DNA of 64,000 bases from Deuterostichococcus epilithicus (lineage: Eukaryota > Chlorophyta > Trebouxiophyceae > Prasiolales > Stichococcaceae): NCBI GenBank assembly GCA_033439295.1, contig JAVTLE010000019.1, positions 248,001-312,000 on the forward strand, in the 5' to 3' direction. A program made the position numbers and the translations under genes. Below are positions 180 to 64,000 of the stretch, piece after piece (the stretch's first letter is position 1; every line of letters begins with the position of its first letter). The notes beneath the pieces were generated by a model. The model saw nothing but the letters and a program-made list of their open reading frames with translations, had not been told where the DNA came from and searched no databases.

Positions 180-2893
180 CTCCTTGACTGCCGTGGGAAA
201 GCCGGCCACCGAGCGGGAGTAGGCCAGCAGCCGCGGCACCAGGCCATCGTCCAGCTGCACATCCAGCGCGGCGCCGCCGCCGGCTGCCAGCTCCTGTATC
301 AAGTCGGACACCTGGCAGCAAGACCCAACTCGGTCATCGCTAAGGAAGGGTTTGGTGTGGAGTTCCAGACCCAGCGCTTTTGGCATTATGTCGGCGCCAA
401 GCTCCGAATCATTCAGGATAATTAGTAGACAGGAAGTAGTGTTTTGATGGAAGTGCATGGCGCCGCCGGCACCCAGCTCCCTCACGCCTTCCGCCACTAT
501 TGGGAGACAGGGACCAACGGTTGCTATAGAGTGGATTGTAGGCATCTTCATGCGCTATGTGCTGTGCCGCTAGGCCCAAGCTCCCATGTCACATCGACAT
601 TGTAGTCGTGTTGCACTGTGCAACTGCCGCCATGAATCGAGCACCTACAGTCACAGATGCTAAAGGAGGAAATGGCTCTCAGACACCAGCGCCTGACAAA
701 ATCCACAGCCACGTGCTGTGGGTATCGAGCTGCAAGCGCTGCATCCGTTAGGAGGGGTATATGACAAGGAGGAAGAGAAAGGGCGGCCGTGCGCCTTGTA
801 TTGGGTGCAGACAGAGGGTCAGAAATGTCTCGTGCAACACCAAACATCAAAAGCACACCTCCTGCGTGTGCTGGCTCTCCACCTTGCCGACGCTCACACC
901 GCCGTGTTTTGCGCCCACGAGCATCAGCGCGCTGCCGCAGCCACACGGACCAGTGTCAGAGGCCACAAGGAAGTTAGTTGGCACGTCTCACGTCTTCATC
1001 GGCGCAGAAAAGTCCCGTCCCAATCCACGGGCTGTCAACGAAGGCATTGCTCCAGATGCTGGTAGAAGAATACTGCATGCACCCAATACAGAGGCTGTTC
1101 CTGGAAAATTTGAATGCCGATCTGCTGCTGCCAGGCTCCGTTTCTCAATCGCACCTGATGCAAGGGAGATGTGTGTGCGCAAGTGACCCACCTGATCCAG
1201 ATGAGCTTCTCCAGCATGCTCTTTTTGTATTGCACCCTGTCCAACACCTTGCAGCTGAGGTCGCCGGCCGCGAGCCGCGCTGCAAAGGCGTCCGCATGCT
1301 TGCCGTTTGCGGCCGTCAGGCCCTCTGGGTTTGTGTCAGTCTTGCCGTCGACTGGCGCGTCGCCGAGCTTGGCCACAGCAAAATACACCAGCACCTGTCG
1401 CAGGGGCCAGGAAAGAATGCGATGAGACAGAGCTTTGCAGATGCAAGGCTGGGGTGTGTGAGGGACAGTTCAAATTCACTGACAGTAGATCCTGTCTGAC
1501 AACCGCCGCGCCCATGCAGACTCCTACAGAATGCGCCTGGTCCAACTCCAGACGAGCAGCGAATGCCACCACATCTGGCGGTGATGTCAAGTTCATAGCT
1601 TTATGATGGCCACACACGCCTGCGTGTTGCCGCCGAGCCCCCGCTCGTCCAGCCACGGCTGCAACATGCCGTTCTGGATGAAGACCAGGTCTGCACGCAG
1701 CGTGAAGCCGGCAGTCAATCTACTCGCCTTTTTCTGGGCCCTGATCAACGCCAGGAGTGTGACTTGCTTGGTCCTTGCGCCCTTTTATGTGCACTCCCTT
1801 TCATGTGCACTCCAAAAGGCAGCCAGTCACGGCAGCCAGGCAAGTACGATGTACACACAGCCTCAATCCGTGAGACACCACCTGCAATTGACATGCAATT
1901 ACGGCCCAGCGTGTGCTGGACCCTTGCATGCACCCTGAAGCGCCACCTATAAGTGCAATCACCTTCTCGCCGGTCTGCAGGCGTGGCATCCACCACAGCC
2001 TGCAGGTCGTTGTTGCGAGTCGTGACAATGATGGGGCCTGGCGGCCCATCCACGCTCTCCCCCCGCTTCACTATTACCTGCGCAGGTATTTGCATGCCCC
2101 GCTATGTGAAGACGGGCACACGATTCCGGCGCAGCTGGAATGTTGTCACCTGCACCTGATGGGTTGCCTTCCATGTGCGGACTGCGACTCTACGCGCTGG
2201 CGCAAGTAGGCGGATGCAAGCGGTGCATGCGGCTCCCGGGTATGCGCCGTTGCATCATGAGACTGAGCATGCATCTTCTCGGCATCAATGTATCCTGACA
2301 ATATGCGGCGCGGCTGCCCTGCACTGCCTATGGTCGCCGGCCACCTGGGGACTTACTCACATCATCGCCGTTCCCAAGGTCCGCGAGCGCCTTGCCCACG
2401 CGGCCGCTGCCGACGATCGTGAACGGCTGCGCAGCGAACGCACCAGTTTTGTATTCGTCAACCAGGTGTGCCCCCTCACTTCACAGCGGTGCAATTGCGC
2501 ACAGTCTCGATCATGCGCTTTAGAGTTTCCGCGAATGCCCGCACAGGCATGCACGAACGGTCACAGGCACACAAGAACACAGGCACACAGCAACAGATAT
2601 TCATGAAACAGTGGCCGAATGCGCCACACGAAAACGTCAATCACATGCGGGTCCCGCATATCCGCGGCGAGCGGCACCTGAGATGCCGCCATGCACACCA
2701 GCTGACGCGTTGCCGGCTGTCGGCGCTGCGATTCAGCCGCCTTGAGCGCCTTTGCGGAACCGGATCCGGGAACTGGCAGAGCAGAAGACTGGAAAGACCT
2801 GCAGGACCTAACGATGCCTGTGCATGCCTTGCGTGCCAAGCACGACCTGGCGGTGGCGATCGTGCAGGCTGCAGAGACCTGAGCGACGGACAT
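180..2893 (-). CDS. Ketopantoate reductase-like protein (3' partial)
   Basis: NAD(P)-binding protein resembling 2-dehydropantoate 2-reductase (ApbA/PanE); the true substrate is not known. Exons on the minus strand: 2893 to about 2650 (N-terminus rich in S, A and R, a likely organelle transit peptide), about 2484-2361, 2077-1963, 1690-1620, 1394-1192, 931-859 and 311-180; the phases of the last five junctions agree. The second exon carries the Rossmann turn GSGRVG. Later exons carry conserved stretches such as DLVFIQNGMLQPWLD, LVYFAVAKLG, KSMLEKLIWI and GFPTAVKE. The 1690-1620 exon is followed by GC, not GT, at 1619-1618, and phase requires this GC-AG intron. The gene continues past the left edge of the window, since the usual segment after VKE is missing. 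The junction of the first two exons is uncertain, and so is the exact start. Confidence 0.75.
451..502 (-). repeat. Decayed copy of an exon start inside an intron
   Basis: This lies in the intron between exons 931-859 and 311-180 of the ketopantoate reductase-like gene. On the minus strand it shares GGAGCTGG, GCCGGCGGC and GCC in the same order with the real exon start at 311-262, about 190 bp away. Translated, VRELGAGG resembles the real LIQELAAGG. The protein alignment joins the flanking real exons directly, so this copy is not needed. Confidence 0.55.
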
Positions 2894-10659: not shown

Positions 10660-13106
10660 ATGGCGCATCCGATTTGTCAGGTCCTTTGCACTGCACAAAG
10701 CAGCGGTGCGGCAACTGTAGCAGCCATTTCAACAAGCACCCCCCGGACAGTCTTCGACGCCAAATTTCAACTTGGCGAGTCCCCCATATGGGATGAGGAC
10801 CACCAGCGCCTGATCTGGGTGGGTCCTTTGGCCATTTCCCCAGACATGTGGATGATGGCGTGGACGCCAGGCTTCACGATCTATATGGACCCGGCGAACA
10901 GCTGATCACAAGAGAATACCGAAGGAAAGTGTGACCGTTCTTGCAGGTGGATAGGAAGGCAAACGCATCCATGTGCTGGTGCCGTCGAGCAGCGAGCACA
11001 CCTCAGTGCCCATGCCGACTTTGACGCCGGCAGTGATTCTGACAGAGGACCCCAACATCCTGGTGGTGCCGTTGGAACAGGTGTGTTCTCGTTAGGTTGC
11101 ACACAGATTCGGGAAGCTGCCCTGAGGAAATGCATGCACATGGCATCATTCTGTGTCCGGCGCTCGCAGTCCTAGGATGCATCGTTGGGGGCATATTCAA
11201 CTGAAACTCTTACGGTGAGCGCTGCACCACGGCGGCCTTGGCGCCGGTCTGAGTGCAAAAGTCCACGTGCCAAGAAACTGTTGGTGCTGTTGCAGAGGAT
11301 CGTGGAAATAGACCTCAGCTGAGGTGGAGAAATTCGCGGCGTGCTGGCAACGGTACCGGCCGACCAGGGCTGGAAGGGCGATGGCACCTGGCGGTTCAAC
11401 GACTCCTGCGCGGCACCGGGCGGCCAGATCATCGCCGGCAGGTGGGTTGCAGAGGGGCTTTGACAGACATTCGGGTCGTGTGCACCGAACACGCTCGCGG
11501 CTCTAAGTGGCCAGATTGCAGCTGGCAGGTGGACAGGAGTGGATCAGCCGCTGTCTGGGTCATGTGCACGGGCAGAGTGCTACACCGTTTGCTTCTTTTG
11601 CCAGACTGCGCGGCTCGGCAGCACGAGCCTGTGCGAGGTTTTGAACCTGGGAGCTTTAAACTGCAACACAAAGGAAACGAAGTCTGCTGGACAGGATGCC
11701 GGAGGAGAAGTGGGAAGACGGAGAAGGCGGCTGGGTGTACCAGCTGGCCATTGGCGGCAGCGCGGCGGCGCCGCAGTTGACGGTGCTCTTCGAGCAGGGC
11801 AAGTTCGGCTTACCCAACGGCATGGCCTGGTCTCTGGTGAGGCGCAGCCTCCGTCAGCATGCTAATTTGTCCACCGAATGGCTGCAGAGTTGGCAGCCGC
11901 AGCAAAAACGTGATGTCTTAGACCTTGCTCAGCGCACGCAATTCAACCATGAAAATTGGCGCAGCAGCATGCTATTATACACCTGATCATATTTAAAGAA
12001 ATGTACATGAGATGCCTCCGCCAATGCTACAGTGGTCAAGAAACTCAAGGAGCAGTGAACGTCTGCATCGCGCCCTTGGTGCACTGTGACGGCAGGGCTC
12101 AGCGGCGCGACACTGGCACCATGCAACTTACCGTCGCCTTTCCTGTCAAATGCAGGAGAAGAGCACAATCTACTATAACGATACGTACAAGGGCAAGGTG
12201 TTCGCCATTCCCTGCGACGACAGGGGCACGCCAGACACGAAAGCCGAGTGGGGCACCGTGGTGACGCTGGACCCAGGTGTGTCTGGGCGCAACGACTGAG
12301 AAGTTTGGCGCCTGGCGGCGCAGGGACAGTGCCTCCTTCTGCATGTTCGCGTGTAGCTGCAGCACCCTGCTGCGGCCATCGACTGCACCGACGGATCACG
12401 GACCAACGCAGCACTAGGCTGCGTGGGGACACGTCATGGGGCTCCTCGCTTCATTCAGCAGAATGTAGTATCAGAGCGCAGATTTGGATGGCGCGCCCGA
12501 TGGCCTCGCCATCGACGCCGACGGCAACCTGTGGGTGGCACAGGTGCGCTCCCAATCACGGTACTGCTTGAAGCAATGCACCGCCAAATTCTGAAATCCC
12601 GTTCCCCTACGCGCCATTTTCTCATGTGGGCATCTTCAGTTGGGAAGCAAGGGCAGCCTCCGTCTCTTGTCCATGGTAGGCCAGCACCGGCAGCGCGGCT
12701 CGCCGTACCGTTTGCGATCATTCTGCGGCAGAGCCTGGGTATACACCAATCCTTGCCATCGCCTGGAACAAAGCTGCAGCTCGCTGCCATTCAGCCTCAG
12801 TTGCAGGCCTTGAAAACATCCTCGCAACCCTGCAAAACGTCTGGGTCATGCATGTATGCACAAGCGCAGGAGTCCGGCGGCAAGGTGGGCGTGTACGATG
12901 TCGACACGGGCGAGGCACTGCACTCCATACGTCTGCCTGTGCGGCGGCCGAGCGCCGTCGCCTTTGGCGGCCCCACCCTGCAGCAGCTGTACATCACGAC
13001 GATCTCGGAGGAGGGCGACGGCGCATCGCCGGACGCCGGCAAGCTGTTCGTTGTGGACGTTGAGGGGGCGAGGGGCGCCGGCGGCGCTCACAAGTGGCTC
13101 GGCTGA
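10660..13106 (+). CDS. SMP-30/gluconolactonase family protein, reading frame interrupted
   Basis: Six-bladed beta-propeller lactonase/esterase of the SMP-30 (regucalcin, LRE) family. Exons: 10660-10818, 10947 or 10955 to 11080, 11296-11441, 11695-11836, 12156-12276, 12482-12543 and 12870-13106. The metal-binding residues of the family are all recognisable: Glu in GESPIWDE, Asn in WRFND, Asn in GLPNGMAWS and Asp in APDGLAIDADGNLW. Two defects stand out. At the start of exon 2 the expected WVDIEGK segment is one base out of frame, unless the unusual acceptor at 10955 is used. In exon 3 a TGA (11320-11322) lies in frame between RIVEIDLS and GEIRGVLATVP, both of which look conserved. All downstream exons keep phase and end in a proper stop. 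Either the gene is a young pseudogene or the assembly has errors here. Confidence 0.75.
11498..11537 (+). repeat. Decayed copy of an exon end plus donor site
   Basis: In the intron after SMP-30 exon 3. GTGGCCAGATTGCAGCTGGC followed by AGGTGG matches the real exon end GCGGCCAGATCATCGCCGGC followed by AGGTGG at about 11420-11445, displaced by 87 bp. The donor dinucleotide is retained at 11529. Confidence 0.6.
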
Positions 13107-13799: not shown

Positions 13800-16700
13800 T
13801 CACGCCTCCACAGCGCCCTGGCAGCCGCTGCCTGAGCCGGCAGTGCAGCCGAAGCAGTGGTTGTCCACGCCAATCGGCCGGCCTGCCAGCTGCGCCAGGC
13901 TGTCGACGTCAAAAACGCTTTTCGGCGCATTGGCGCCGCCCAGCCCGAGCGCCAGCTGCTGGTTGAAATCGCAGTCGTAGAGGGATCCGTCCCAGCCGAC
14001 GCTGATAGTGTCGCGGCACATGACGCCCTGCGCGGGGGAAAGGGTAGAGCGTCAGCGGCGTCAGCAGCGCTGCATGGTAGCCGGCCGCCTTGTGGCGGCG
14101 CCATGGACACGGCAGCAGCGGTGGTGTTTGCCGCACCCGCATTGCAGCCTGGCCAGGACACCCTTTTTGGCGCTGATGCAGGAGGCTCTCAAATGCCGCC
14201 TGCATCAACGTTCTCGAATCGCATTTCATGCCCGCTTCGTCTGTTTCGACTATTTCGTTTTCGTTCAATAACCGCCAAGCTTTGGAGAGGCGTGCATCCC
14301 CGACACCGCTGCATCGGAACCAGATTAGGTGCTCCACTCTGACCTGCCTCCAGCCAGTCGCACTGGCGCATTTACACATTCGGACCTTCTCTCGACCTCC
14401 TGGAATGACAGGAAGGAGCGACGCGCACCCCTGCCGCTCCCATGCATAAACACCAGCGTGTACTCTCTTCCAGCTGGCCCCGCTGGACCAGCGAGCCCAC
14501 TCGCGCTCTCATGAACCTTGCAATGGTGATCTTTTGTTTTGACATCATAGTGTAATTGGCAGGAGGAAAACGTCACCTCCGCTGCCGCCGCATTGAAGCC
14601 GTTGACCAGCGTCTGCATGTACTCCTCCAGCTGGCCCCGCTGGCGCAGGTAGTCCACATAGCGCTTGATGGGCATGTTGTTGAGCGCAAACAGGCGGCTG
14701 AAGGTGATGCCGAAGGCCTCAGACAGCTCCCGCCTGCGTGCGTGTGGTGTGTCAAGAGTTCTGGAGCCTTACGTCCACTGCGTACAAATGACATGGATGC
14801 GGCTGAAGGAGTGATGCTACTGGGCTTGGGCACCTCCTCGCCTGCGGGCAGCATGTCACCCCAGGCGACACACTGCCACGTCTGGCAGGAATGCTGAGCT
14901 GCAACATGCAAGCCCATTGCCAGGGCGCACCAGGCGGCCTGCTGGTCAGCCGGGCAGCCGGCCACGGCTCATGGCGCGTCACCCATACGATGCAGAGGGG
15001 CGCCAGCGCCGTGCTCTTGCTGCCGCGAAGGGCGGGAACCCTTGCAGCTCTGCCGGGCGAGCGCGGCGCTGATGACTGCAGGTTTGGCATGTCAACCCTG
15101 TCATGCTGCTGGCCCAGCCCAGAGCCTGCCGCCGACGCTCACCTGTACGCCTGCTCCAGGGTGGCCTGTTCGGGCGCCAGAAACGCGCCGTTCGGGTTGT
15201 ACACCAGATCCAGCTCCAGCCCCGAGCCCGGGCGCCCATAGCCCACCTCGTTCAGCCGCCGCAGGCCCTGTGCGATCAACAGCACCAGATGGCTTACTGC
15301 CATGGCCATGCGCGGGTGCGGTGGGTCCCAGGCACCCAGGCGGAGGCTGTGAGGAGCCGCGCACCGGTTACGGCCGCCACTGCTACGACAGCAGTAACGG
15401 CAGCTGCGGCTGGTCAGCTGGGCAGCAGCTGCGGCCGGTCAGTTTCGCTATCGAGAGCTACGCAACACTGAGTGTCCGTCCTGACTCCTCGACTCCCTCT
15501 GTGCAGGACACCCCCATCACCCCCCAGACCACTGGACACATGTGTTCGCGGCCCAACCACACCTGATTCCTGCGATCAAAGGCACCGCCGCGCTGCTGTG
15601 TCCCGATTCCGTACGCGCAAGGCTATGCAGAACTGCAGTAAGTCTCAATGCTGCAGACCAAGACCGTCGCCGCCGCAACACCTTTCAGGTACACCAGATC
15701 GCAAGGTGGCACCGTGGTGCTGCAGTGACACGCGTCGCCGCCGCTCTGCATGTCTACCCTCTTCCACCATGCCTCCGAAACCCATCAAATGAAATTTTCC
15801 AGCAGCCCCACCTCGATGCTGCGTTCGAAGACGCCGCCGCCGCGCTGCGCGTCCACGTTCTCGGCGCCGTAGCACGGCAGGCTGGCCGCCACGCGCACGC
15901 GATTCGCTGCCAGAAAGTCCGCTAAACCCTCCTGCCCTGGCTCCAGCAGCACCGTCAGGTTGCACCGGTCGATGATGTCACTCACTCCAATCTCGCGCGC
16001 CCGCGTCACGATGTACCTGTGCGGAATATGAGATTTGCTGCGTGAGTGAGGAAGGCGGCAAGGAATCCGGATGTGGCTGGAAAGATCTGACAATGCCTCC
16101 TTTCATGCCTCGTAAACCTCGTGGGTGCGGCCGCATTGCTGCGGGTGCCCTGCACGAGTCATCGTCGACCAGAGCTCGGCCCGTGCAGCGCTGGCAGCAC
16201 AGCTCAGGCAGCAATGTGCCAGCGCAGGCACTCCTGAGACCCACACCTGAACTGCGGGCTGAGCTCGGGCGCGCCGCCAGTGATGTCCAGCGTGTGCACG
16301 GTGTCCAGGCCACCCTGCAGCAGCTGCAGCGCTCGGTCCGCAGTCGCGCGGTCCATTGCCTCTGTGCGCAACGGGGAGCTCTCCACGTGGCAGTGGCTGC
16401 ACGCCTGCAACGCGCATCATCCGCCACGGTTCATACCCCAGGCAATGCTACCTGGTCTCAGCAAGCAGGCGACGCTCTCAACGTAGCAGTGGCTGCAAGC
16501 CTACAACGCCACAGGGAGCAGAGCTTTAGTGAGGCGGCGGATATGAGGGAACCCTGCAGCCAAGATGACACGGCATAAGCGGCGAGTGCCGCCACGCAAT
16601 CAGCTCTGAGCACAACATTTCTGTCACCATACGATGTCAGTGCAATCAGAGCTCGCATGCTCTGGGTGTTTAGGCGCGTGATGGGCCGGCGGTGTCCGCA

Positions 16701-19105: not shown

Positions 19106-20013
19106 GCTGGGGAGCGGGCGGTGGGACGGCAAGCCAGCTGGCGCGCCGTCCGGCCTGCATCGCCGCCGCAGCGGCCAGAGGGACATGCACCACCATTGTA
19201 CCTTGTTAGGAGGCCGGTCAGCATTCCGCCGCCGCCCTGGAGTTGCACTTTCATGTGGAAGGAGGGTCGGTAGGGGAACACCCATACCTCAGCAGTCACA
19301 CCTACCTACTTGAGAGGTTGAGAAGACGAAGAAGCACAGCTGGCACTTGCTGTCATGGTGGGCATTGTTGCTATTGAGAATGTGCGGTTCAGGTGGGCTC
19401 TGCAATCATTTGAAACGGTTGACACACTGTCCGATCTCCAGTATCACACCTCTTAAAGGCGTGCTTCTCTCCCAACGAATGCCACAAAGTCTCGGAGCCC
19501 CGGTTGTCGTAAAGTACGATGTACCTCTTGGAAGTTCCAATCTACGCTGAAAACCTAAACCTCAAAGTCTAGCACCACATCCACAAATCAGATCCATGTT
19601 GCTCATGGGATGGTTGGCCTGTGCAACTCCCTAGCCCCGTGCCAGCTGCACGCCACACAGGACCGCTACCTTTTTGGGCGTCCCTGGCAGGGCCATGCCG
19701 AGACCAGGTACCTGCAGCGCCAATTGCGACAGGGACGGCATGCAAAACTCCGGCACCCGGCCTGCGCACAACACCAGACACAGCTGCCGGCGCCACATCG
19801 ATCATCCGATGTTGGGAGTCGAAGCATCGTCACCTTCACCACTTGCTGGGCCCTGCTCAGATTGATGAGCTGCGGTCCAGCAAAGCTCCTTGTACAGGCA
19901 ACATTCTCGCCCAACCCAGACCTGTCCCTGGGGCCGAACCAGCGCACATCTGGGCTGGCTTGTGCTGGCCCGGCGGCGGCGCGGCGCCCGGCGCAGGCGC
20001 CCCCCGGCGGCAC
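19106..20013. other. No supported gene
   Basis: Several open frames exist on both strands but none shows recognisable domains or a consistent set of splice sites. Likely 3' UTRs of flanking genes plus intergenic sequence. Confidence 0.4.
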
Positions 20014-20117
20014 TCAGCGGCGGCCTTCGATCCAGGGCGGCGTGTTCGCGCCAAAGCCGACGCCGCCACCGCCATGCTGCCCGTACCCGTCTGGCACCCA
20101 GCGCTCCTCTGTGCCCA
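20014..20117 (-). CDS. C-terminal exon of an unidentified protein
   Basis: After a good acceptor (gttgttcag) the minus strand reads GTEERWVPDGYGQHGGGG, then VGFGANTPPWIEGRR and a stop. The sequence has the look of a real C-terminus, with several aromatic and Gly residues and no frame break. Upstream exons between 20130 and 20790 could not be assigned; an open stretch at about 20700-20590 has hydrophobic character. Family unknown. Confidence 0.35.
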
Positions 20118-20929
20118 CTGAACAACACCGATCAGTGTCGCCAGGTTTACAATCGCACACGGGCCTGGCGATGGCATCCAGAGGCGGCCAACCGCCCTGC
20201 CACACCTGCGCAGCCCCTCCAGCTGGATCATATTGCACGAACCCTCAGGGTCCCCTCCTGCGAATGCACCTGAAAAGCGCGAGATCGCTTGCTGATGCGC
20301 CTCAGAGGTCAAATTACCAGCAAGTCGTCAGGCCTGGGGACAGTGTGCCACAGGCCCCTTGGGGTTTTGTGCATGGGGGCAGGCCGCGGTCTCTGGTGCT
20401 CGTCGTTTCCTGCCTGCAGAAAACTCAGCAGTGCACCGTCAGAGGTGTCATTCATTTGACCGCGCTCTGCAGGCACAGGTGGTATGGACAATCGTCCTCG
20501 TACTCAGACCCTGCTTGCTGAGCCTGCAGCAGAGGCGGAACAAGTGTGAGAATGTGGACGGCGCACAGCAGGGCGACCTTCGGTACCACGCCCTGAGTGA
20601 GGGTCGCACTATCCAGCGGATTGCAACGGACACCAGCACAGTCGCCAGAGGCGGCTCGGTCAGCGACACGAGCAAGTGAAAGCCCGTTCGAATCTCAGGG
20701 AAGCAGAGCATCGAGCTGCCTCTGCCGTTTTCATGACTGCCATTTGCATGACACCATGCTTGGTCACGCCTTAGCGCAGGGATGCGCCAATCATGTGTCA
20801 TTCATGCACAAGCGCTTCCGGGCACAGCTGCCTGGGTAGGAATAACGAGGTCCCCGAACAGCAGTTGTTGACACAGCTGCCGGCTTATGGCAGCTGCAAC
20901 CACAGCGCAACTGCTGATCGGATGCCGAG

Positions 20930-48165: not shown

Positions 48166-51100
48166 ATGTTTGGGCACTTTTTCCATGGTCGGGGTCCGCT
48201 GGCCTCATTCGACCGATCCTACCGCTGTTATCCCGTGAGCTTCATAGACAAGCTGGGAGCGGAGAACGGGGACAAGGTCTTCCTGCCGCCCTCGGCGCTG
48301 GACGAACTATGTGAGCACTTCCTAAGTGTCCGTGCATGTTCTGTCTGCTGCATGCGCCTCGGGTGATGAACGCATCGCCACATGGCAATTGCGCCGCCGC
48401 CAGCGGGTCACCCAACTGCCAGGGGCAGCCAGTTGCCGCAGCACGCCTTTAAGGGCACCGCATCGCCCCGCAACAGCACGTGAAGGATGTGCACGTGCAG
48501 GGACCGTGCCAGGTGCTCAATCAGACGCGGTCGGATCCGTTCAACCCGACGCCGCCGCTCGCTGACCTGACTGCTTCCTGCACCATTGCAGCCTCCATGC
48601 AGGTTGAGTACCCGATGCTGTTCAATGTGTCCAACCGGCAGACGAGGCGCGCCACGCATTGCGGCGTGCTGGAGTTCATTGCTGATGAGGGCGTCATCTA
48701 CATGCCCTACTGGGTGTGCCCTCTCTGCCATGCCATTTAGTGTGGGAGCTGTGTCCCTTCTGCCCCCATGCTCGGTTGTGGAGGCAGTCATTGCATGAGT
48801 CCGCGCATGGTGCTGGATGCAACTGGTGTCCGCGCATGGTGCTGGATGCAACTGGTGCAACTCCTTGCATCGCTGTGGCGGTTGTCTTAAGAATGCTGAA
48901 TTGGACGCGTCTGACGCCGTGCTGACTTGGAATCGGCTGGAAGCTGGCGGTGCATGCATGTCATGGGAGAACAAATGGTGGGCATTGCACCCAAAAGTTC
49001 ATGTGCATTTCAGGCTGCATGCGCCTAATGCCGCGCTGTGCTTTCCGTCTTTGCAGATGATGCAGAACCTGGTGCTGCAAGAGGGCGATGTGGTCAAGGT
49101 GAGCACGGTGTCTGGTCCCTCCTCACTGCCTTTACTACTTTCTGCTGCAATTTGCACGAGGTTGACTGAAATGTCCCAGATGTTCGCATCGCAACATGCG
49201 CTGAGAGTGCGCCACTGTGAGGCCCGGTCGGGGGGACTGGACCGCCGTGTGCCTCGCTGAGAATCCTTGTGGGAACACCACACTCTCTGCTGTGCGCTGC
49301 CCAGGTGCGCAACGTGTCGCTGCCCAAGGGCACGTACGTAAAGCTGCAGCCGCACACCACGGACTTCATCAACATCTCCAACCCCAAGGCGGTGCTGGAG
49401 ACCACGCTGCGCGGGTGTGTGCGCAATCGATTATGCTTTCCATCCGTGATGCCCTGCGCAACAAGCGCCTGTGGATGCCTTGTCTCAGGGTCACTGCAGC
49501 TGCCATAGAGCTGCCATGGAATTGCATCTACGGTCACCATCTGCATGCACCACAACAACACGGATTGCGGCTTGCAAACGAACTCCGAAAGCTCCGCCTG
49601 TGCTGATATTGAAGGTACTCGGCGCTGACGGTGGGCGACGCCATATGCGTGTACTACAATAGCAAAAAGTACTACATCGATGTCGTGGAGGCCAAGCCGG
49701 CCGACGCCATAACCGTCATCGACACCGACTGCGAGGTGCGTGCCCGTGCGCGTCCGGCTGTGCCCTCGGTCAGGCTGTCCAGGAGAGCGCCCCAGGATCT
49801 CTGGAGAGTCGGTCGAGACTGAGACGCGAGGTGGTGAAGGGGCCAGCGCCCTTGCAGGCGTCGCGCATGCAGCTAGTGCCAGGGGAGCCTGCGTCCACGT
49901 GCAGGATTCAGACCAGAATCCGCACCCGGAGGGAATTCATGGAGCGTCTGCTCATCCGCCGCTGCCGGGCGTACTTTGCTGTACCTCATGTCTACACGGC
50001 TGAGGCTTCGTATTACCTGCACCGCAGGTGGACTTTGCGCAGCCGCTGGACTACGTTGAGCCGGTGCGGCAGCCGCAGCCAGCAGCTGCGCCGGCGCCGG
50101 CAGCAGGTGCCGCCTTCGCAGTGCTTCCTCGGACTTTTCGGTTCTCTCTAGGGTCCTAATAAGTCTGCATGGACCCTGCGCAATGGTGCCCAGCCATCGA
50201 CGCTCTGCAGGGCAGGGGCGGTGTTTGAAGCATGACTATGTCACTCCCTGTAGAGGCAGCGGGCCCGTCGACGTCGGCGGCAGAGCCAGCGGCGCCGGAG
50301 GAGCCAAAGTTCCTCGCTTTTGCGGGCTCGGGTCGGCGTCTGGACGGCAAGACGCCGAAGCACGAGGCGCAGCCGGTGGCTGTGCCGCTGAACCAGTACC
50401 AGGGTGAGGCTCCTCGTCTCTTTGGTTTCTCATGTGCCCTGCATCACGACGGTTGCCGAGTGGATCTGCTGTAGCACGAGCTGCAGTGTCCTGCGCAGCT
50501 ACGCCGCAAGCCGCTGCACATCAGCAGCGACACGGGTTCATACAACTGGCTACGCAGGCAAGCGCTCCTGAAGCTGTTCCTGTCAAAACCCTCCCTTGCG
50601 GCACCGGCCCTGTTCAACTCCCGCTTGGCTCTGCCTGCGCAGGCGGCTGGCGCACGGCAGCAGAGTCGCTAGCGGCGACGGGCGGCGGGCCAGAGAGCGA
50701 CGCGGCTGCCGCGGAGGGCAAGCCCGGCGCAGGTGCGTGCCGTTCTGAGGTTTCAGACGCTGCCGGGCAGGGTCGGCGCAGCAGCACACCTGGTGCCTCG
50801 CATGTGGCCTGAGGCCTGTTGCCACATCCGCGGACAGGGGTAGGCGGCAACGGCAAGCGTGCCGGCAAGGTTGTGTTTGGCGGCGGCAACCGTCTCACGG
50901 CAAAGAAGGTGGGCAGCAAGTCGCACGGACTGGGATCTGGCTGCAAATTGGCCTCAGCTGCTCCCAGTGGGGAAGGCTGAGCATGCATATCTGTGACAGG
51001 ACACTACTCGTTCCTTGCCGCAGCCGCCGCTGCCACTACTTTGGGGCTCTCAATCTGGTTCAAAGGTCCACACCTAATAAACCTGAAATCCTTCTACGTT

Positions 51101-51896: not shown

Positions 51897-54800
51897 ATGG
51901 CGGCCGACAATGCGCCGGCCAAGGAGCTGTCGGGGAAGGCCAAGAACACTGGGGATCATCAGGATGCCTCCATCGAATTCCCACCAACCTTCCTGACCGG
52001 TAAGGCCAGATCTCCAGGCCGCTGTTGCCACCATGTACGGCTCACGATTCTGCAGACGAATGACACTGCTCTCTGCGCACGCAGGCGTAGCCATCTCGGT
52101 GTATCAAAACTCAGGTGGGAACTGCCGCACATGGCGCGATGTCACCCTCGCCGCAGCCGGCACAGCATCTTTCTGTCTCTGATGCACGAGCTCGTGCCAT
52201 TCCGCTGGTTGCAGGCGACCCCAACTCCAACTGGGCGTGGTTCGAGAACCAAAAGAAGGCCGCCGCCAACGTGCGCCTGCGCTTTGCGCTTGGCAGCGCG
52301 GACGACAATGACGGCCTGGACGAGAGCAGCGACGGCTTCGCAGAGACACGGTATGTCCCGACGTTTTATGTCTGTGAGCTGATCAGATGCTGTTGCAATT
52401 CTGCAACGCCGCTGCTGATCCAGCCGCGGGCGGCTGAGGCGCCGCCCAGCACATGGCAGGCTACATGTTGTACGCCAGCCTTCCTGCGAGCGGTCACCAG
52501 CAACTATCCAGGCAGGCAGATCATCTCGTGTGATTCGAGGGAGAAAAACCTTGGTGTCTCAGGTGGGAGAGGCTGGGGCCATCGGTCATCGAGAAGGGCT
52601 ACAAGATCGGCATCAGCTCCGACTTTTGGAATCGCTATGAGGAGGACATCCAAATCGCCAAGGACCTGGGTGAGTACATATACTTAATGCTGAGATATAC
52701 AAACTGGAATGTGAAGCCTCAAGTGCTACGACAAGAACATTGGCATCGCCAAGGAGGCCTGAGCGAGCAGGTGTTGCAGCGATGACGAGTCCTGCTTCCG
52801 AATGTGAACGTTCAGAATCACCCAGCATGCTGCCGAAGTCCATGCAATTGCTTAAAACGTGTCGGGAGCAGCCTTTTGAGCCCGCGTTCATGCCCACTGT
52901 GTGCAGGTTGCAACAGCTTCCGGCTGTCCATCGAGTGGAGCCGCATCTACCCGCGCCGCGGCGAGATTGACCAGTCGGCAGTGAACCGATACCACCAGAT
53001 GTTCGATGCACTGGACAGGCGCGTGCTGAATGGCGCACTGCTCCTGCTTGTTGGACACTGATCCGCACGTCTCATTCGCCACCAGCCTGTCATCATCGGG
53101 TGATGCGCTCACCCGCCGCCCGGCGCTTGCATCCAGCCTGGCGCAGCTGCTCGTGACGCTGCCGCTCGCACGTTCACAAGCGGGCTTTCACCGCTGCCGG
53201 TGCCCGACATGTGCGCTGGTCGTTTGCGCGGCAGGGCCAACATGGAGAGCAACGTCACCCTGTACTGGTTCGTGCTGCCCAAGTGGTTCATGGACATGGG
53301 CGGCTTCGAGAAGGAGGAGAACATCGAGGAGTTCGTCAACTGGGGCCGCAAAGCCTTCGAGCTGTTTGGTGGGCGCCCCGCGGTCCTCAGATTTTTCTGA
53401 TTTTTTTTAATTTGACCTTGAGGCCTTGTCGCTGCTTGCACACGTACAAATGCGCATTGTGACATGCTGCATGAGCTGCCGCACCGGTTCCGCATCACGC
53501 GCCGTACGACCCGAGGAAGCCGTCGGGGATGGCGGCCGGGCTGTGGTAGCCCGGCCTGGGACACTCAGCCTTGGCACGCCGCGCTGCAATGTTTGCGTGG
53601 CAATGTTCGTGTCGCAATGTTTGCAAGTTCCACCGCCGCGGCGCAGGCACGCGCTCGAAGCTGTGGGCGACGGTGAACGAGCCGGGCGTGTCGGCCATGT
53701 GCGGCTACATCGTGGGCAACCACCCGCCGGGCAACAAGGGCCGCTTCCCGGTGAGCGCCCGGGAGCATTTTTGGGTTTGGGGCACATCAGAACGTCCTGA
53801 TCCGACCTGCAGGTGGCGGCACAGGTGGATAGGCCCTGCAAGTGCTGGTAGCCGGGCCTGTGACTGCATGCATGCGCCGCCGCTGGCAGCTGCAGCCCCA
53901 CACCGCTAAACCGGCTGCGATATGGTCAGCCGACTGGAGGGGCAGCCTGGGTGACCCGCGCACTGCAGGCTTGAGGCAAGTCGGGAGGGGGAGGGCCTTT
54001 CGTGCATGCAGCGTCCGCCGTGCTGCTGCAGACCTGCCGCATGCCGCACAAAGGCGGTGTCTTTCCTCCGCTGGCAAGGCCTTCGGCACCCGAACTGCCT
54101 GCCCCCGCGACCGCAGATGGCGGGCAAGGTGCTGTGCAACATCCTGCGGGGGCACACCTGCATCTATGATGCCATCAAGGCGGCGCCCGGCGGCGCCAAT
54201 GTCGCCGTCGGCATCGTGCACAACGTGTTCTGGCTGGAGCCGAAGGGCACCGGGCCGCTGTACGCGCACGTCAGGTGAGGAGCCACATCCCTGATTTGGC
54301 AGAGACCGATGGTCGGCATCTGCCCGCAGCGTGCTCTGGCCGAGACCCAAGGACACCTGGCCGCTCTCCGTGCATGTCAGGTGAGGAGCCACCTGCAGTC
54401 GCTTCCGGGAGAGCGCTCTTGGACCTTGCGCTGAAAGATTGGGTTCGTGTCGGTGGCATGCACGGCGCATGGGGCAACGAGGAGTGTCCCAGCACGCTGT
54501 CAATTGGCAAAGTTCTGAGACTGTCACGTCCATTGCCGCAGAGCCGTCCTGAACGCCGCCAACCGGGTTTGGGGGAACGAGGTGGTCATGGACTACCTGC
54601 GGGAGGGGCGCTTCGACTACTCGACGCCGGTGCCCTTCCAGGGCAACGTCAAGTACCTGGTGTGCCTCGTGTTGCCGTCTTTACGCCTCGCGCTCTCCCC
54701 TCCGCTCGAGTCGTGCCTGCACCTGGCAGTCGCGCAGCATCTTGAATGGTGTGGCAGGCGCAAGGGGCCCGATGCGTGGGGGGCGCTGCGAGGGGAGGTT

Positions 54801-57800
54801 TTAGGGTTTTGGGTTTGGGGAGGTCGCCCCTCCGCACCCTTCCGCGAACCATCGTTTGCAGCAGATCTTGGGAGTGTGCTTGGGCCGGACCACCCGCTGT
54901 CTTTGGCTAGAGCTGACGGGGCTGCGCTCAAACTCTGCGGCTGCAGGAGCCGAACGGCAAGCCAGGGTGCGACTTCCTGGGCATCAACCACTATGCCAGG
55001 TGCGCGCACCTTGTTTGCAGTGCTTAAATCCATGGCAGCTGCGCATGCAAACACGGAGAGGCTTGCCGAGCTGTGCCAGTCACTCTTGCACCAAGCATAA
55101 GGCAAGGCTGAGTCAGTTCCCGCTGAAAGAGAAGGAAGCACTACCGAAAGCGCCGGGGACATTGGGCGGCGGCACAAACCTACGTCCAGCAGGGATCCCC
55201 GCCCACCGGCACAGGACGATGAGCATAGTTTGTCGTGTGCAGGGCGGTGTGCAACTGGAAGCTGCAGCCGGACACGAAGGGCGAGAAGGGCGGCCTCAGC
55301 CAGATGGTGCGCGATGCGGAGTCCTGCGCCCTATACTCAAACCACTGCCCGCAACATCACACTCTCGCACATTCCCGCATCGCATTCCCGCCGTCACCCT
55401 GACTGCCTGCAGCATCTCTGTAAGACCCCAGGCCGCTGCGTGACTGTGGCGCTGGTGCATGCGGTGAATGCGCATTCCTCGCACGGCAGCCAGCGGCAGG
55501 GGCTCCCCACTAGCCCGGCAGCGCCCGCCGCTCTGCGGACCATGCTGCTGGAACGGCCGCAGCAACATGAACATCCGATGGAACAGGGAACGGCGTGGCC
55601 GCAGAGCAACGCGCGCGCGGTCGTCAATATGTGCTCCGACCCTTGAAAACCACCAACACTCCTTGAGAAATCATCCCAACAAAACCCAGTTCTGCCGCGC
55701 CTGCAGGGCGACCCGCACCCACCCTCCCTGTAGCACCTTGATAAGGTCATGCCAGCAGAGGATACCTCATGTAGCAGACGACACCCTGCTCACCCGTGAA
55801 CCCCTTCTCCTGTCGCCAGGAGTACCATGTGCCCCCACCAGGCCTGCACCGCTCCATCAGCCACGCCTCAGCCAGGCCTAGCCGACGACACCCTGATAAC
55901 CATGAACCCTGCTGCTGCAGGACTACCCGGTGTACCCGCCGAGCCTGTACCGCTCCATCAGCTACGCCTCGACGCTGGGCGTGCCGATCTACATCATGGA
56001 GAACGGCATCCCAGCTGCCAAGGACGACCCCTCCCGCCGCAAGTGGATCAACGGCTGCCTTCAGCAGGCGCGCGCCCTACACCTCGCCTGGCGACCGCCT
56101 CGGCTGCACCTTGCGCTGGTCGCCTGCCCTGCTGCGCACTGCGGCAGTGGGTGACGCACCGCGCTGCACGTCAAGCTGACGACAGCATCTGGTCTACAGC
56201 CTGGGCGTGAGCCTTCTGAAAGGCGGGAGGCGAATTGGCGTCCTCCCGCTGCAGCATGGGCACTTCCAAGGGTATGGGCATCAGGCTCAGTGGAGGCAAG
56301 GCAACCAGCCTGTCCCTGACGCCTTGCGCCTCCTGCCCACAGGTGAAGAACGCGATCGATGACGGCTTTGACGTGCGCGGCTACATGTACTGGACGCTCA
56401 TCGACAATTACGAGTGGAATTTCGCCTGGGTACGCATCCCGTAGGGTCCAGACCGAGTGTCAAGTCAGACACCTTATCTTTTATCTTTTATGACAAACTT
56501 CCTATTAAAATTGTGTATTCATGCCTTTGAATGAAATGCTATGTCTGGCGGGTGCAGCGCACAGCCATCGTCGCAGCAACCTGTGCGCCGTAGCAGGTCC
56601 CTGTCCCAACTGCGGGAAGCACCTCCTTGCTGTGCATCACGTGGAGCCCGCTGCCAGAGCGCACGGCGGTTCACCGGTCCACGCCTACACCCCGGCACAA
56701 GAGGAGCGTGCGACCGGAGCATGCGACCGGCCTCTGACTCGTGGACACCGGTCGCCCGCAGGTCCTGGAGTTCGGCCTGTACGAATTTGTGCCCACGGAG
56801 GACAATCCTGGCGGCGTGCGCAAGATGAAGGCCGGCACTGAGGTGTGTGAAACCTGACATTTGCTCGGCAGTCGTGACTCCACTTTGCGCTTCCCCAGAT
56901 CGTGCCTGGCCGACTCGGCGAGCATGCACCGTCGTGACGGGACCGCTGCACCGCGCCGTGCGACCGAGTTCGTGCTCTGGAGCAGCACAGCCGCGGCAGA
57001 GGTTGCCGCCCTGTCCGGCCCGCAGCCCGCCCAGTGGCTGCGCCTCCTGCCGAGTATGTTGTCTGGAGCCCTTCCTCTCATGCCGAGGCAGGCGCTGGGG
57101 GAGTGGTATGAACACCAAGGCCCCCCAAGCTCACCAGGCTGCCGGAGGCGTTCACATTCTTGGTGTAAACCTCATTGAAACCTGCAACTGCTTGCTGCAC
57201 ACCTCGAGCGCAGATGGTCTGCCTCCTGCCGACGCAGGCGCTGAAGGAGTGGTACGAGACCGAGGGCCCCAAGCTGACCAAGCTGCTCGAACAGCGCGTC
57301 TCCCAGAAGGGCAGCCCGATGCCGGTCAAGTCGGACGGCGAGCGGCGGCGGCTGGAGGAGTCCCGCGAGCGGGAATTCCTGAAGGCGCAGGGCGTCGCCG
57401 AGAAGGACCTCCCGAACCTCACCAGCCAGGACGTGAGCGCCTGCTGCGTGTGCATTTCATGCCTGCGTGTGAGATATGTGGAGCCTCCCGTCTGGTGTGC
57501 TACGAAGCCCAACCTCGCCAGCCGGGGCGCGCGCCGCACCGCCCTGCTTTGTACCGTTCATCTTCTGTGCTGAGCCTCCTTCTGACGATATCGCGGCTGC
57601 AACACACAGATCCTTCCCTTCGACCTTCCTTGTCGCCGGCGCCGCACGGCCTGACTCGATCTTGGGAGGGGGGCAGCGCGTGGTGGGCTGCTTGCGAGGA
57701 AGCTGTTCCAGCCCGGCCGCCCCTGTGCTGCGTTCTGCACAGCCTGCCCAAACCCTACTGGATTTCCCGTGAGACCGCCTTGCGCCCTGGAAACTGCCTT

Positions 57801-58682: not shown

Positions 58683-61600
58683 TCAGCCACTCAACAGCCC
58701 GTGCCAAGGACATGACCTGCAGAGGCACATCAGCTCGACGTCATCATCCTTGGTCGAGTCGAGCACAGAACTTTGACGCCCGCCAAACCGAGGCAGCCGG
58801 CCTGACGCTCAGCAGTGAGCAGCTTCTGCAGAGCATGCCGGCATGGCAAGGCTCCCACATCCCCGAGAGCCAAGGCCCTGATTTGATCACACAATCGCCC
58901 ACATCCCCACACGAGCGCCCGAGCAGCTCTGCTGCCTGCTCTGGCATGCTCCTGCCAGGGTGTTGCCGCACGCTTGCTCCGGCGAAGGCTCCGGCAGAGG
59001 CTCCCGAACATACCGGCAGGCGTGACTTGAAGAGCAAATGCATCGTTCAATCCAAACAAGCATGTTCCGCACGACTTCAGACACCTCGACATGTACACTG
59101 TCCTACCTTGATGTAGTGATTGCCCGCAAAGCGGCCGAAGCCTTTGCTGTAGCTGTCCAGCCGGGGCACTGGCTCGCCGGGCGCTTGGGTGTTAACAAAG
59201 GGCGCACACACCTGCAAGCACACACACGGCAGCCTCAGGCTCGACACATGACAAGCCCTATCCCCGGCAACTTGCTGGCCCCAGACGAGTTGCCGGGGTC
59301 ACAGCTGCGGACGAGGCTGCCTCTGCAACGAGATGCAGGAGCCACAGGCAGCAGCGTGGTCAGCACTGGTTGAAGGACAGCCGCACGCTCACCGTGCACG
59401 ATGCCGCCCATGCACCTGGCGCAGCGCCTGCTGGATCCTAAGCCCTATAACCTCACCTGCGTCTCGGTGTCGGACACGTCCGTGAAGGTGACATGCTCCT
59501 TCTGTACCCAGTCCGGCGCCGCCGAGCGGCCCACGACCGGCCGGTCCGACACCGCCGAGAGCTTCTTGCCGCGGGCCTGATACCGTTGCCGCACTGCTGG
59601 CGGCACCAGCCCCAGCGCCGCCTGCGCGCCGCGTGACAAGGTGACAATTTTGCCCTGTGGGCGCTGCGAAGGCATTGCTGTCGAGGAACGCCGTCAAGAC
59701 TGACTCCTGCTGCTGGGCAAAACGGCGACCGAGCGCGCAGAAGGATGTCTGCTGGGCAAAGCAGCAATTGAGCGTGCGGAAGGTTGTGGGTCACAACCAT
59801 CCAGGAACAATCGGCCGCCGCAGGCGTCCTGTCGGCGGTGCGCAGAACGGTGCAAGCTGCACCTGGAAAGTTGCCTGGTTGACATCCTCGCCGCTGATGC
59901 AGGAAGATGTCTGCTGCTCCGCCAGGTCGTGCTCACCGAGCGCCTGCGTTGTGGGCGCAGGCACTGGTCAGTCTCCATCTGCTGGATGCTCGTTGCCGAA
60001 GTCAGGAGGCCTGAAACGATGCCATGGACGGGAGTCGGCATTGCTGGCTGCAGAGCCAGTTTTCACCATGTGTATGTGACCAGTAAACCCGGCAGGCTTA
60101 GTCTGGCGCAAGGACCTTCTGCAGTAAGAGAGGTGGTTCTGCAGTGGCAGTACTGCACCAAAGACGGTCAACACACAGCAGCAGGCGCGGCAGCGGATCA
60201 CCGGGTGGACTTGAACAAGCTGGCAGCCTTGCGAAAACCGACCAGCCATGAATCAGAGGCAGCAAATGACAGCGATTCACTCATCCGGGACACAGCGAAG
60301 GCAGTGCTTGAAAGTGCCCTATTGAAATTGTAGGACCTCAGCGAGAGCGGTGCATCAGGTGGCATTCCCATTGTTTGACGGAGGCGCAGAGCGCACCCGG
60401 CAGACTGCAGAGGCGGTGCGTGTCTTGAGAGCGTACTCTGCCCCCACAGCCGGCTGCACTCGCTCTTGGGTCTCCAAGAAGTGGCGCCACAGGTGCACGT
60501 GCACCTGCACCAGCGCCCGCCCGCCTGCGTAAGCAGGATGTTGGGAATTTGTTCAACGTCACAAACAACAGCCCAGAGGGTCTCAGGCCACAGATAAACT
60601 GCGCTGCCTGCACTAGCGGCCGCCTGCGCATCGCAGGCATGGCGTGAGAGGATGGAACAACGACCACTTCCGAGTCATGGCGCAGACAAGGCTTTCTCCA
60701 GGCGTCCGTCGCAACCCGACACATCAAGCCTGCGGGGCCATGCGTCTCGTCGCAGTCTGAGGACACAAGCGTTCGGAACGCCATGACTGCGCGATCAACA
60801 AGTCGACTGGCATTTCCATCAATGATGGCCGGTCCACTGCGCTTCCACGCGGCAGCGCTGCAACCCACCGGGTAGCGACTCGATGACTGGCTGATTGTAG
60901 AGGAAGGTAGACTCGTCTGTGTGCGCCGTCGCCACGATGACCACTCGGTCCTGCACCTCGGGCGGCAGCGGCGCCAGCGCCCGCCGCTGCACGTCCGCCG
61001 CAAATGCCTCAGCGGCCGCCAGCTCGCCCGGGTGCGCCAGCCACTTCCTGCGGTGCGAACAGCGCGGCATCAGCCCTGCGCTGCGGTCTCTGATCTGATG
61101 CGGCCTGTGGTCCCTGGCGGGCCTCGGGCGCCGCAGGCAGCCGCTTCGGCCGCCAAGCTGCCGTGTCGCCCGCCGGGCAGCTTGTGCGAGGTGCGAATGC
61201 TTCAGCCCCGCACACAATTGCTTTGTGAGCTGACGTGGATCCGATCGCTGATCCGATGGCAAGGCTTCGGTAAAGACAATTTCTCTGACTCGCCTGGAGG
61301 CTTCTGAGGCACTTATGGCCTCGCCGCCCACTGCCCCCGCGATGATGCCAGCCGCCGCCAGCGCGCCAGGGTTCGGCATGTCGGGCTCCTGCGCGAGCGC
61401 CGACAGCGCTGCGCCGACGCGGCCCCGCCCTGCAGGACAGTGTATCGACCGGGTCCTTGCGCTGGGGCAGCATCTAGAGCTTCTCTTTGGTAGGTCTCAG
61501 AATCCGGGGTTTGCAGCATGGAGAAGCGGGCGGCAGCTGGACAGGCGCGCGCCATATTCCTGCAGAGGGGACTAGCGACAGTGATGTATGGATTTCTAAT

Positions 61601-64000
61601 CGAAAGATTTCTTGACCCCAGTTTTCTCTCGAGGCGGAAGCGGTGGTTCTGTTTGCGACCTGAAGCCTGCACGGAATGCGCACCTGAAGCCTCCAAGAAA
61701 GGCCCCACGATGTGCGCCGACGCCAGCAGCTGCTGCAGCAGTGCGCCGGTCGCAGAAGCGGCTGCGGCGGTGCCGCCGCGGTGTACCGCCAGGAAGTTGG
61801 CCATGATGCCGGCTGCCTGCAGCATTGCAGGGCATGCGCTTGGTCGCTGTCGACAGTGGGTCGTGAAAGCTGCACACCCATTTGAGCCGCAGCCGGTGCC
61901 AGGCCGTCGAGACGGCCTTCTCATGGTATCTGCCAAAAAATGATCGCTGTCATATACGACTGCTGCGCAGAGCGATCCTGACGAGCCCCCTGCTGGCAGC
62001 TACTGAGCGCAGGGGTGTCTGGCACAGGGTTGGCTGGCACAGTCCTTGTGCGCAAACCTCTGAGATGGCGTCGTCATGGCTGAGGTCCGGATCGAGGTCC
62101 AGCTGCGGCGCGCCAGGGAACAGGGACCTCTCCTTGCCGGACCCGAACTGTGCGTGGTTCATGCCTGCAGCAAGACACGCACCTTCCGTCAGGCCCGGCA
62201 AAATAGGGTGACCGGCGCCAAAGCGCGAGCCAGCAGTGCAGTCACCCTGCTGACATGCATGGCGTAGCTCATTCTGTGTCCGCAGACAGCGACAATGAGC
62301 GCAGGCACTTCTGCAAGACCGCGGATCTCCAGTCTGCATTCACTGATACTTTAGCGGTTTAGCGCATCCGTTACGACTGATGCACATCCTTGGTGCACCT
62401 GGCACAATGACAACAGGCTGGAACACCGCCGCCCGCCGCAGGCCCTGCTTGGCCGCGCGCGCCACGGCATTGGCGAATGCGGGCGCTTGGCGGCTGAGGT
62501 ACTGCTGCCCGTCCAGCTCGCCGGTAAGATTGAGAACCGGCCGCGTCCTGCGGCGGAATGATGAAGGCCTCAGCAGGTCTAATGACCTGTCTCAACTTGG
62601 ACACAGTTTCGCAAGCCGGCCTGCTTCGACATGTTTCTGTCCCGAAAGCATATATGATGCGCCGTGTCCCGCCTGCCCTCAGCAAGGCATGAGCGCCTGC
62701 CAGGCCACGCCCCCCACCGGCGACTCGGCAGGAATGTGTGCGCTGCTGCAACTGCAATGTCGGACAGGCTTTCACTAGGGGGAGACCTGCGCTACCACGG
62801 GTCCTGACAGGTCTTCACCAGGTGGAGACGGTGGGGAATGTGTCCGAGATCTCCGGCAGGATGGTGGACGCCAGCAGGATGAGGCCGCCCGCCTGCTCCA
62901 GGGCATACCGCACCAGCGCCGGCCCCATGGCGCTGTGCCCCGCCATGAACACGTTGTCCCGCCGGCCTGTGCGGGTGATGCGTGTTCACGAAGAGCGTCA
63001 CAGTGGCTGAGCTTCTTGCTGCTGCTAGCCAGGGCACACCGCCCCAGGGCGTATCGCTCCAGGGCATACTGCACCAGCGCCAGCCTGAGCGGCCTGTGCC
63101 CATGTCATGCTAGCAATGTCGCGCCGGTCTGCACGACAGGAAGCTGCCCAAGAGGCTGCTGCTGCTGCTGCTGCGGCATTGCTGTGCAGGCGCATGTCAG
63201 AACATGTCAGCACATGCACCCGTATGCGAAACGCATGCCCTGGCACCAGAGGAGTCGAGTTCAGTTCCTACCGGTGCCGCCCGCCTTTAGGTCCATGTGC
63301 TGCCCTGCCGCGTCGATGATTGTTGCCGTCGCTGCTGCAGCAATGTCCACCAAAATGGACATGGACCCGCTGCGGCTGCCCATGCTCTTCTGCGACGCCA
63401 TGATGGCCTGCCAGTCGATGTCGATGATGCCCACGGTGAGCCGCACTCGCTCCCGCAGCGCTTCCTGCGGCCACACAGTGTGTGCTGCAGCATCAGAGGG
63501 CTTTGCCGCCTTGCAGCGCTGTGAAGGGCGCATGTGGCGCATCCCCACGGCGTTCCTGAGTGGCCATGAGAAGGGTCAGGTGATCCACAGCAAAGCGCAG
63601 CCCTGCTCGTGAGCTCACACCTGGAAGGGGGGCCATGTCGGACAGGCCCACGGTCGATGTTTTCAGCTTGGACATAGGGGCTTCCGTCATGGATTGAAGA
63701 GAGCTCAGCTCGGAGGTCCAGGAGCATACACCTGCAGGGCTGTGGCGAGCTTACGGAAGTCTGCAGCCGGCAGCAGCGCCCCAGGCGCCAACACCAGCAG
63801 CGTCGCCGTGGCTTCATCCGCCGTGCAGTCCGGCAGGGGTCCTGCATATCAGTGAAGACTGTTTTCCCTCAGGGCTGCGGTAGCCGTGAGCCAGATCCTT
63901 TGCACAGAAGGCGAGATCCTCGACGACATTTCAGCAGCGCATGTCACTCCTTACAGGAGCGCGGCGCAGGAGTGCAGCGTGAGCGACTCGACATTCCCCA
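58683..64000 (-). CDS. Alpha/beta-hydrolase with long C-terminal extension (5' partial)
   Basis: The first exon enters from the right edge and ends near 63954. Supported minus-strand exons follow: 63841-63733, 63464-63272, 62966-62819, 62547-62399, 62165-62059, 61816-61684, 61429-61294, 61047-60869, about 60524-60430, 59677-59457, 59211-59107 and 58748-58683. An alpha/beta-hydrolase core is clear: LLVLAPGALLPAADF strand, the nucleophile elbow MAGHSAMGPALV (GxSxxG), an acid-region VLNLTGELDGQQYL, and PGMNHAQFGSG for the histidine. The following AAGIMANFLAVHRGG closes the core. The remaining 300 or so residues (QDRVVIVATAHTDESTFLYN, GRALVQVHVHLWRHF, TFTDVSDTETQ, DSYSKGFGRFAGNHY) are unfamiliar. 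They could be a second domain, or the end of a separate gene, though most phases join. The intron after 61294 has a GC donor. Substrate unknown. Confidence 0.65.
59710..59786. repeat. 39-bp imperfect tandem repeat in an intron
   Basis: CTGCTGGGCAAAACGGCGAC and CTGCTGGGCAAAGCAGCAAT begin two head-to-tail 39-bp units ending in GAAGGATGT and GAAGGTTGT, within the hydrolase gene. Confidence 0.85.
63053..63110 (-). repeat. Decayed copy of the nucleophile-elbow exon
   Basis: Plus-strand CTCCAGGGCATACTGCACCA then GCGCC at 63057 parallels CTCCAGGGCATACCGCACCA then GCGCC at 62896, displaced by 161 bp. The copy lies in the intron upstream of the GHSAMG exon and covers the AMGPALVRYALEQ coding segment, now out of frame. 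Confidence 0.85.

Follow-up and report, generated by a model that had tools for sequence, protein, structure and literature searches.

Introduction

The origin of intron length is an open question, and a 64,000-nucleotide stretch of DNA from the green alga Deuterostichococcus epilithicus (the window, by which we mean this whole stretch) raises it in a concrete form: why do introns here contain sequences that resemble the ends of the exons beside them? A first-pass annotation of the window described nine such segments as copies of exon ends and attributed them to tandem duplication across exon junctions. If about one-fifth of introns keep a datable copy of an exon end, junction-crossing duplication would be a measurable source of intron growth. 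If true, this would also show how frequently a duplicated splice site is tolerated. Past duplication episodes could be dated from the relics, whose duplicated splice sites would in turn offer natural material for testing how a splice site is chosen.

Predicted genes in the window

The GC content of the window is 59.5–70.9% per 4 kb and its gene structure is eukaryotic. Pfam matches revealed GH1 fragments on the + strand within 52.0–58.2 kb and DUF3641 on the − strand within 13.0–17.8 kb. A small, purpose-written gene finder seeded with the GH1 and DUF3641 exons returned 8 predicted genes with 58 exons; these gene models are predicted from sequence alone. From a by-eye reading of the translations, we take further genes to be UFD1-like, SSB-like, SMP30-like, ketopantoate-reductase (KPR)-like, and alpha/beta-hydrolase (ABH)-like. 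The surveys described below cover 7 of these genes, which together have 49 introns and 98 exon boundaries, and leave out the predicted gene at 27434. Exon ends were set by hand for 16247–16406 (from the strict boundary survey onward) and for 162–314 (from the permissive survey onward). Searches of the window with Rfam (at the gathering threshold) and ARAGORN both came back empty, and no relative was found when the GH1 and UFD1-like peptides were compared with viral contigs or when the UFD1-like peptide was compared with genome contigs.

Copies of exon ends in neighboring introns

We aligned each claimed segment to its own surroundings (±400 bp), using 200 dinucleotide shuffles as a control. 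Among the nine reported intron copies of exon ends, five are strong and one is good; two are marginal, and one (53512) is not established. The similarity in the strong cases exceeds that of the shuffled controls, with z up to 13.9. We conclude that the observation of exon-end copies in neighboring introns is largely real.

In the GH1 gene (+ strand), an exon end and the first bases of its intron (54207–54286, with the donor GTGAGG at 54275) recur as a decayed copy 105–106 bp away in the intron, at 54312–54392, where the donor GTGAGG is kept at 54381 (z 13.9); the segment first reported here, 54330–54395, has a score of 69, reached by 0/200 shuffles. Farther downstream, an intron end and exon start (55879–55970, first exon base 55921) have a decayed upstream copy at 55772–55869, with a spacing of 107 bp that leaves the two nearly abutting and the copied acceptor lying before 55820 (z 12.5; reported as 55777–55882, score 78, reached by 0/200 shuffles). 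The exon start at 57223–57286 (first exon base 57238) is likewise preceded by a decayed copy at 57077–57142; the spacing is 146 bp and the acceptor AG is kept before 57092 (z 11.5; reported as 57085–57152, score 57, reached by 0/200 shuffles). There is also a weak intron copy, new to the list, of the exon end at 52634–52674; it lies 91 bp away at 52725–52767 (p 0.0075), and its donor reads GC instead of GT. The same gene contains a predicted GC-AG intron (53019–53234), with CTGGACAG as the last bases of the exon and GCGCGTG as the first of the intron. As for the segment at 53512–53566, its best match within its surroundings (score 28, p 0.01) lies 302 bp off at 53846–53864 and not at an exon end; against its own adjacent exon, the region gives p 0.025 in the permissive boundary survey.

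In the DUF3641 gene (− strand), an exon start with its acceptor (16368–16413) has an upstream copy 96 bp away at 16461–16509, the least decayed of 12 alignments, in which the acceptor CAG reads TAG (z 7.2; reported as 16463–16508, score 50, reached by 0/200 shuffles). Three more copies in this gene were missing from the earlier list. An exon end (14577) and intron start (14551–14670) have a decayed copy in the downstream intron at 14401–14513, about 157 bp away (z 9.2); an exon start with its acceptor (14694–14741) has a decayed upstream copy 105–108 bp away at 14799–14849 (p 0.005); and the exon end at 15803–15883 has a decayed copy 249–259 bp away at 15554–15624 (p 0.0025), with a further weak copy at 15644–15676.

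In the ABH-like gene (− strand; named by eye), the exon start at 62870–62969 has a decayed upstream copy at 63024–63131, with a spacing of 161 bp; the segment reported here, 63053–63110, is strong (score 55, reached by 0/200 shuffles). The copy overlaps a 15-bp repeat at 63029–63077. Over 63022–63077, this repeat amounts to 3.3 copies of 15 bp, carries the same exon motif as the 62.9 kb exon, and perhaps represents a second, shorter round of duplication. Elsewhere in the same gene, two predicted exons, 61010–61039 and 61349–61378, are alike (83% over 30 bp) and lie 339 bp apart. On the same strand, a short predicted exon (20 bp, which may be false) and its acceptor, at 60505–60540, have a copy 101–103 bp away at 60608–60641 (p 0.0025), also an addition to the list.

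The exon start of the KPR-like gene, again named by eye (275–334, − strand), has a decayed upstream copy 185–187 bp away at 461–521. We rate this case, reported as 451–502, as good: it scores 30 against 29 for the best shuffle and reaches p 0.01 in the permissive boundary survey. The marginal cases are both on the + strand. At 11496–11532 there is a copy of 11409–11445, 87 bp away (reported as 11498–11537; score 25, p 0.015 from shuffles); it is absent from the boundary survey because the predicted gene model has no exon there. The other, at 34114–34131, matches an exon start of the SSB-like gene (34255–34272) 141 bp away; reported as 34110–34138, it has a score of 26 and reaches p 0.005 both against shuffles and in the strict survey, with p 0.17 in the permissive survey.

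Exons match their own introns

Self-BLAST was performed on the window in 2 kb pieces, with masked stretches excluded; pairs with a first copy at 20000–33000 or 38800–42900 were masked as low complexity, and 12801/21852 pairs were kept. At distances of 90–180 bp and scores of at least 26, there are 12 direct pairs, two of which share one site at 62.9 kb, versus 0 inverted pairs; a single shuffled window yields 0 direct pairs and 1 inverted pair over the same range. Lowering the score to at least 24 gives 17 direct versus 3 inverted pairs. Strong pairs occur at 54207/54312 (105 bp), 55772/55879 (107 bp), 57077/57223 (146 bp), 62895/63056 (161 bp), 16378/16474 (96 bp), and 14465/14622 (157 bp); weaker ones are 14694/14799, 15803 with 15554 and 15644, 52634/52725, 60505/60608, and 275/461.

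We also compared every exon end with its adjacent intron. In the strict survey, 10/98 boundaries have a match at p ≤ 0.005, where 0.5 are expected and the reverse complement gives 0; at p ≤ 0.05 the count is 23/98, with 4.9 expected and 5 for the reverse complement. In the permissive survey, where the query includes up to 20 bp of intron, 10/98 boundaries have a match at p ≤ 0.01 compared with 1 expected from shuffles. At this threshold, the control counts are 1 for the reverse complement, 0 for reversed sequence, 3 for the complement, and a mean of 4.0 for random other introns; at p ≤ 0.05, 19 matches are observed, with 10, 5, 5, and 10.0 in the corresponding controls, and at p ≤ 0.0025 there are 7, compared with 2.4 for random other introns. 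The matches at p ≤ 0.01 are distributed over the GH1 (4/28 boundaries), DUF3641 (4/12), KPR-like (1/8), and ABH-like (1/16) genes. The SSB-, UFD1-, and SMP30-like genes, which make up 3/7 genes and 34/98 boundaries, have no match at p ≤ 0.01 in the permissive survey. In this window, perhaps one predicted intron in five bears a worn copy of the adjoining exon end.

Given that random other introns exceed dinucleotide shuffles, which makes shuffling alone too lenient a control, the test we rely on is the comparison of an exon's own intron with other introns. The same excess (4.0/98 at p ≤ 0.01) speaks for a simple explanation of the matches, in which GC-rich exons and introns resemble each other by chance through composition, triplet runs, or splice motifs, as does the fact that 3/9 of the original claims (11498, 34110, and 53512) are marginal or not established. 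In the cleanest test, exonic sequence alone was compared with real introns using length-normalized scores (the counts are derived from fractions). Scores of at least 24 are found in 13/98 own introns versus 75/3960 introns of other genes (Fisher p 1e-7), and scores of at least 32 in 5/98 versus 0/3960 (Fisher p 7e-9). That own-intron scores rise above those of 3960 pairings of exons with introns of different genes, that no inverted pair scores at least 26 at 90–180 bp, and that z is as high as 13.9 all argue against chance, which we consider very improbable as a general account. For the strong cases we reject it, based on the shuffles, the inverted-strand control, and the introns of other genes. 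We also considered introner elements; these are unlikely given that 0/3960 pairings of exon ends with introns of other genes reach a score of 32, a measure that counts exon–intron pairings.

Within a gene, introns out of contact with the exon match at the background rate at scores of at least 24 (12/660), and the intron on the opposite side of the exon matches in 4/84 cases. At scores of at least 32, there is 1/660 among the non-touching introns, so a strong match is not always adjacent: in the SSB-like gene (33122–36171), the start of the exon with index 4 pairs, at a score of 36, with the intron of index 2, which it does not adjoin. A CAG-rich tract (34945–34990) lies near this pairing.

Copies straddle splice sites and lie within existing introns

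The boundaries copied at p ≤ 0.01 include 4 donors and 6 acceptors. All 10/10 matches straddle the splice site and extend 4 bases or more to either side of it; the source of the copies is therefore unspliced sequence. As expected from tandem duplication, the alignment of the 55772/55879 pair fills 98 columns of its 107 bp spacing. Elsewhere, the unit is filled only in part (81/105, 66/146, 44/157, and 36/96), and near-abutment is seen only at 55772/55879. The earlier proposal of tandem duplication across exon junctions thus agrees with the direct orientation of the copies, their position in the adjacent intron, and their straddling of the splice site, although most alignments fall short of a full unit.

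The distances at p ≤ 0.01 are 91, 96, 101, 105, 106, 108, 146, 157, 187, and 259 bp. For the analysis of distances and intron lengths, the predicted exon 63040–63067 was taken out because it is itself the copy, leaving 48 introns; as a result, the strong pair 62895/63056 is absent from the 10/98. Introns with a copy have a median length of 402 bp (n = 10) compared with 265.5 bp for those without (n = 38; p 0.005). Relative to length-biased sampling, this difference has p 0.17, so growth of the copy-bearing introns by about one unit is no more than suggested.

The first-pass annotation also named tandem duplication across an exon junction as a known route to new introns. The geometry speaks against intron gain here: the copies are 91–259 bp away from the boundary, within introns 237–614 bp long, which suggests that existing introns were lengthened and not that new introns arose between two AGGT copies. 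In Rogers-type intron gain (reviewed in PMC3443670), an AGGT-containing exon segment is tandemly duplicated and the sequence between the AGGT copies becomes the intron. The window shares with this model a short tandem duplication involving splice motifs. In contrast, the distance between copies, which equals intron length in the model, does not equal it here, and on these grounds we reject Rogers-type gain.

The copies decay with little codon-position bias

Across 12 alignments, a set that includes the not-established 53.7 kb and marginal 34 kb cases and takes its reading frames from peptide anchors, exonic mismatches number 43/215 at codon position 1, 41/215 at position 2, and 52/211 at position 3 (20, 19, and 25%). 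Conservation of a coding copy should give a strong excess at the third position; the nearly even distribution of mismatches indicates that the copies decay as non-coding DNA. Divergence in the exonic part is 12–25% per case, and 11/12 alignments contain gap columns there.

These data bear on the possibility that the copies are functional, that is, tandem-duplicated alternative exons or splice sites kept for regulation as cassette or poison exons. In all 11 copies located by motif, the copied position reads GT or AG, though these copies were chosen as alignable with a site in the motif; the copied site is altered at 52725 (GC for GT), and the not-established 53.5 kb copy has no AG. The distance from the real to the copied site is a multiple of three in 6/11 cases, where a third would be expected by chance. 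In the GH1 gene, what looks on hand reading like a complete 51-nt mini-exon, open and in frame, lies at 54330–54380 with an AG before it and GTGAGG after it; among the copies, this one is the likeliest to be used in splicing. The little codon-position bias and the gaps in 11/12 alignments argue the other way, as do stop codons in the extension, which occur in at least one of three frames in 11/11 copies and in all three frames in 4/11, counted irrespective of which frame is the gene's own. Taken together, we consider it unlikely that the copies are functional.

The same reasoning applies to duplicated, mutually exclusive exons. Tandem exon duplication (PMC5740500) resembles our observations in that exon sequence is duplicated locally, and differs in that here it is mostly parts of exons that are copied, with gaps and little codon-position bias. 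Functional exons of this kind are unlikely because the codon positions reveal no coding constraint and 11/12 alignments are gapped; the open, in-frame 54330–54380 is the exception.

Proposed origin of the copies

The copies are probably fossils of short (roughly 90–160 bp) tandem duplications across splice sites in which the outer site was kept. In this proposal, a tandem duplication of roughly 90–160 bp, with breakpoints on either side of a splice site, would place an additional exon end, together with its splice site, in the intron. Splicing would stay with the outer site, so the protein would be unchanged. The inner copy would be absorbed as intron, lengthening it by about one unit, and would then decay neutrally. 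Copies of exon ends would remain visible longest because coding constraint holds one of the two copies, whereas purely intronic duplications of equal age would show about twice the divergence and fade out. Since one constrained copy would roughly double the time over which a pair can be seen, a bias toward exon ends could arise without special targeting.

A process aimed at the junctions themselves, such as slippage in replication, transcription, or repair at exon–intron borders with a nucleosome-like length, could produce a similar picture. Among the 17 direct pairs with a score of at least 26 at 85–400 bp, classified with the predicted exons, 14 are exon–intron, 1 is exon–exon, and 2 have no exonic member. 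The lengths also look restricted: 8/10 distances fall within 85–165 bp (p 0.00025 by Monte Carlo simulation with copies placed uniformly along the intron, for a range picked after seeing the data), and outside the masked stretches self-BLAST finds no direct pair with a score of at least 26 at 30–90 bp. Yet old age combined with one-sided constraint would predict an equal exon bias, and the same length window could result if duplications that are very short or contain exons were selected against; the sample, moreover, is small. We regard junction targeting as quite unlikely. A broader scenario, for which we see only an outside chance, is that an episode of junction-aimed, nucleosome-sized duplications (about 100–160 bp) enlarged the introns of this lineage, that about a fifth of them carry the fossils, and that the copied sites supply a stock of potential alternative or poison exons.

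Age of the duplications

The first-pass annotation suggested that the process is active. Our data do not support that description: we find no direct pair of at least 30 bp and at least 90% identity, 30–600 bp apart, outside the masked stretches, and the exonic parts of the copies differ by 12–25%. If the process were steady and continuing, young copies should outnumber old ones and should include purely intronic ones; we infer that the set dates from an old episode and not from a process still under way. Contraction or assembly collapse may have removed young copies, but neither should eliminate those at 5–12% divergence. Outside the masked stretches, Tandem Repeats Finder also detects an exact tandem doublet with a 29 bp unit at 48799–48857, within an intron predicted for the UFD1-like gene; this is a young, short duplication.

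Relation to described duplications

Segments inside genes are duplicated in the window, as in the internal gene duplication that Gao and Lynch reportedly treated in 2009. Internal gene duplication is commonly observed, according to PMC4974935, and introns in general are reviewed in PMC3488318. The closest parallel is the potato RdRp gene, where a young tandem duplicate across an intron–exon boundary made a new spliced intron (Ma, Lan and Niu 2016, PMC4974935). There too the duplicate crosses the boundary, so that the 3′ splice site and the start of the exon recur at a second position. The potato duplicate is young and gave rise to a new intron and new exon sequence, whereas the copies in the window are decayed and lie within an existing intron.

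The mechanism is thus known, and it is the density within the window that is notable. We recognized no report of such density in an alga among the matches listed, judged by titles and the starts of abstracts, a weak negative in that subscription papers are mostly uncovered. Junction-crossing duplication having already been described in potato, what would be new is the density and the 100–160 bp scale.

Other repeats in the window

Repeats of other kinds are also present. A 63 bp unit is repeated four times at 23610–23860, in the GC-richest part of the window (20–32 kb, 68–71% GC), and minisatellite arrays with units of 45 bp and 12/48 bp occupy 42334–42773.
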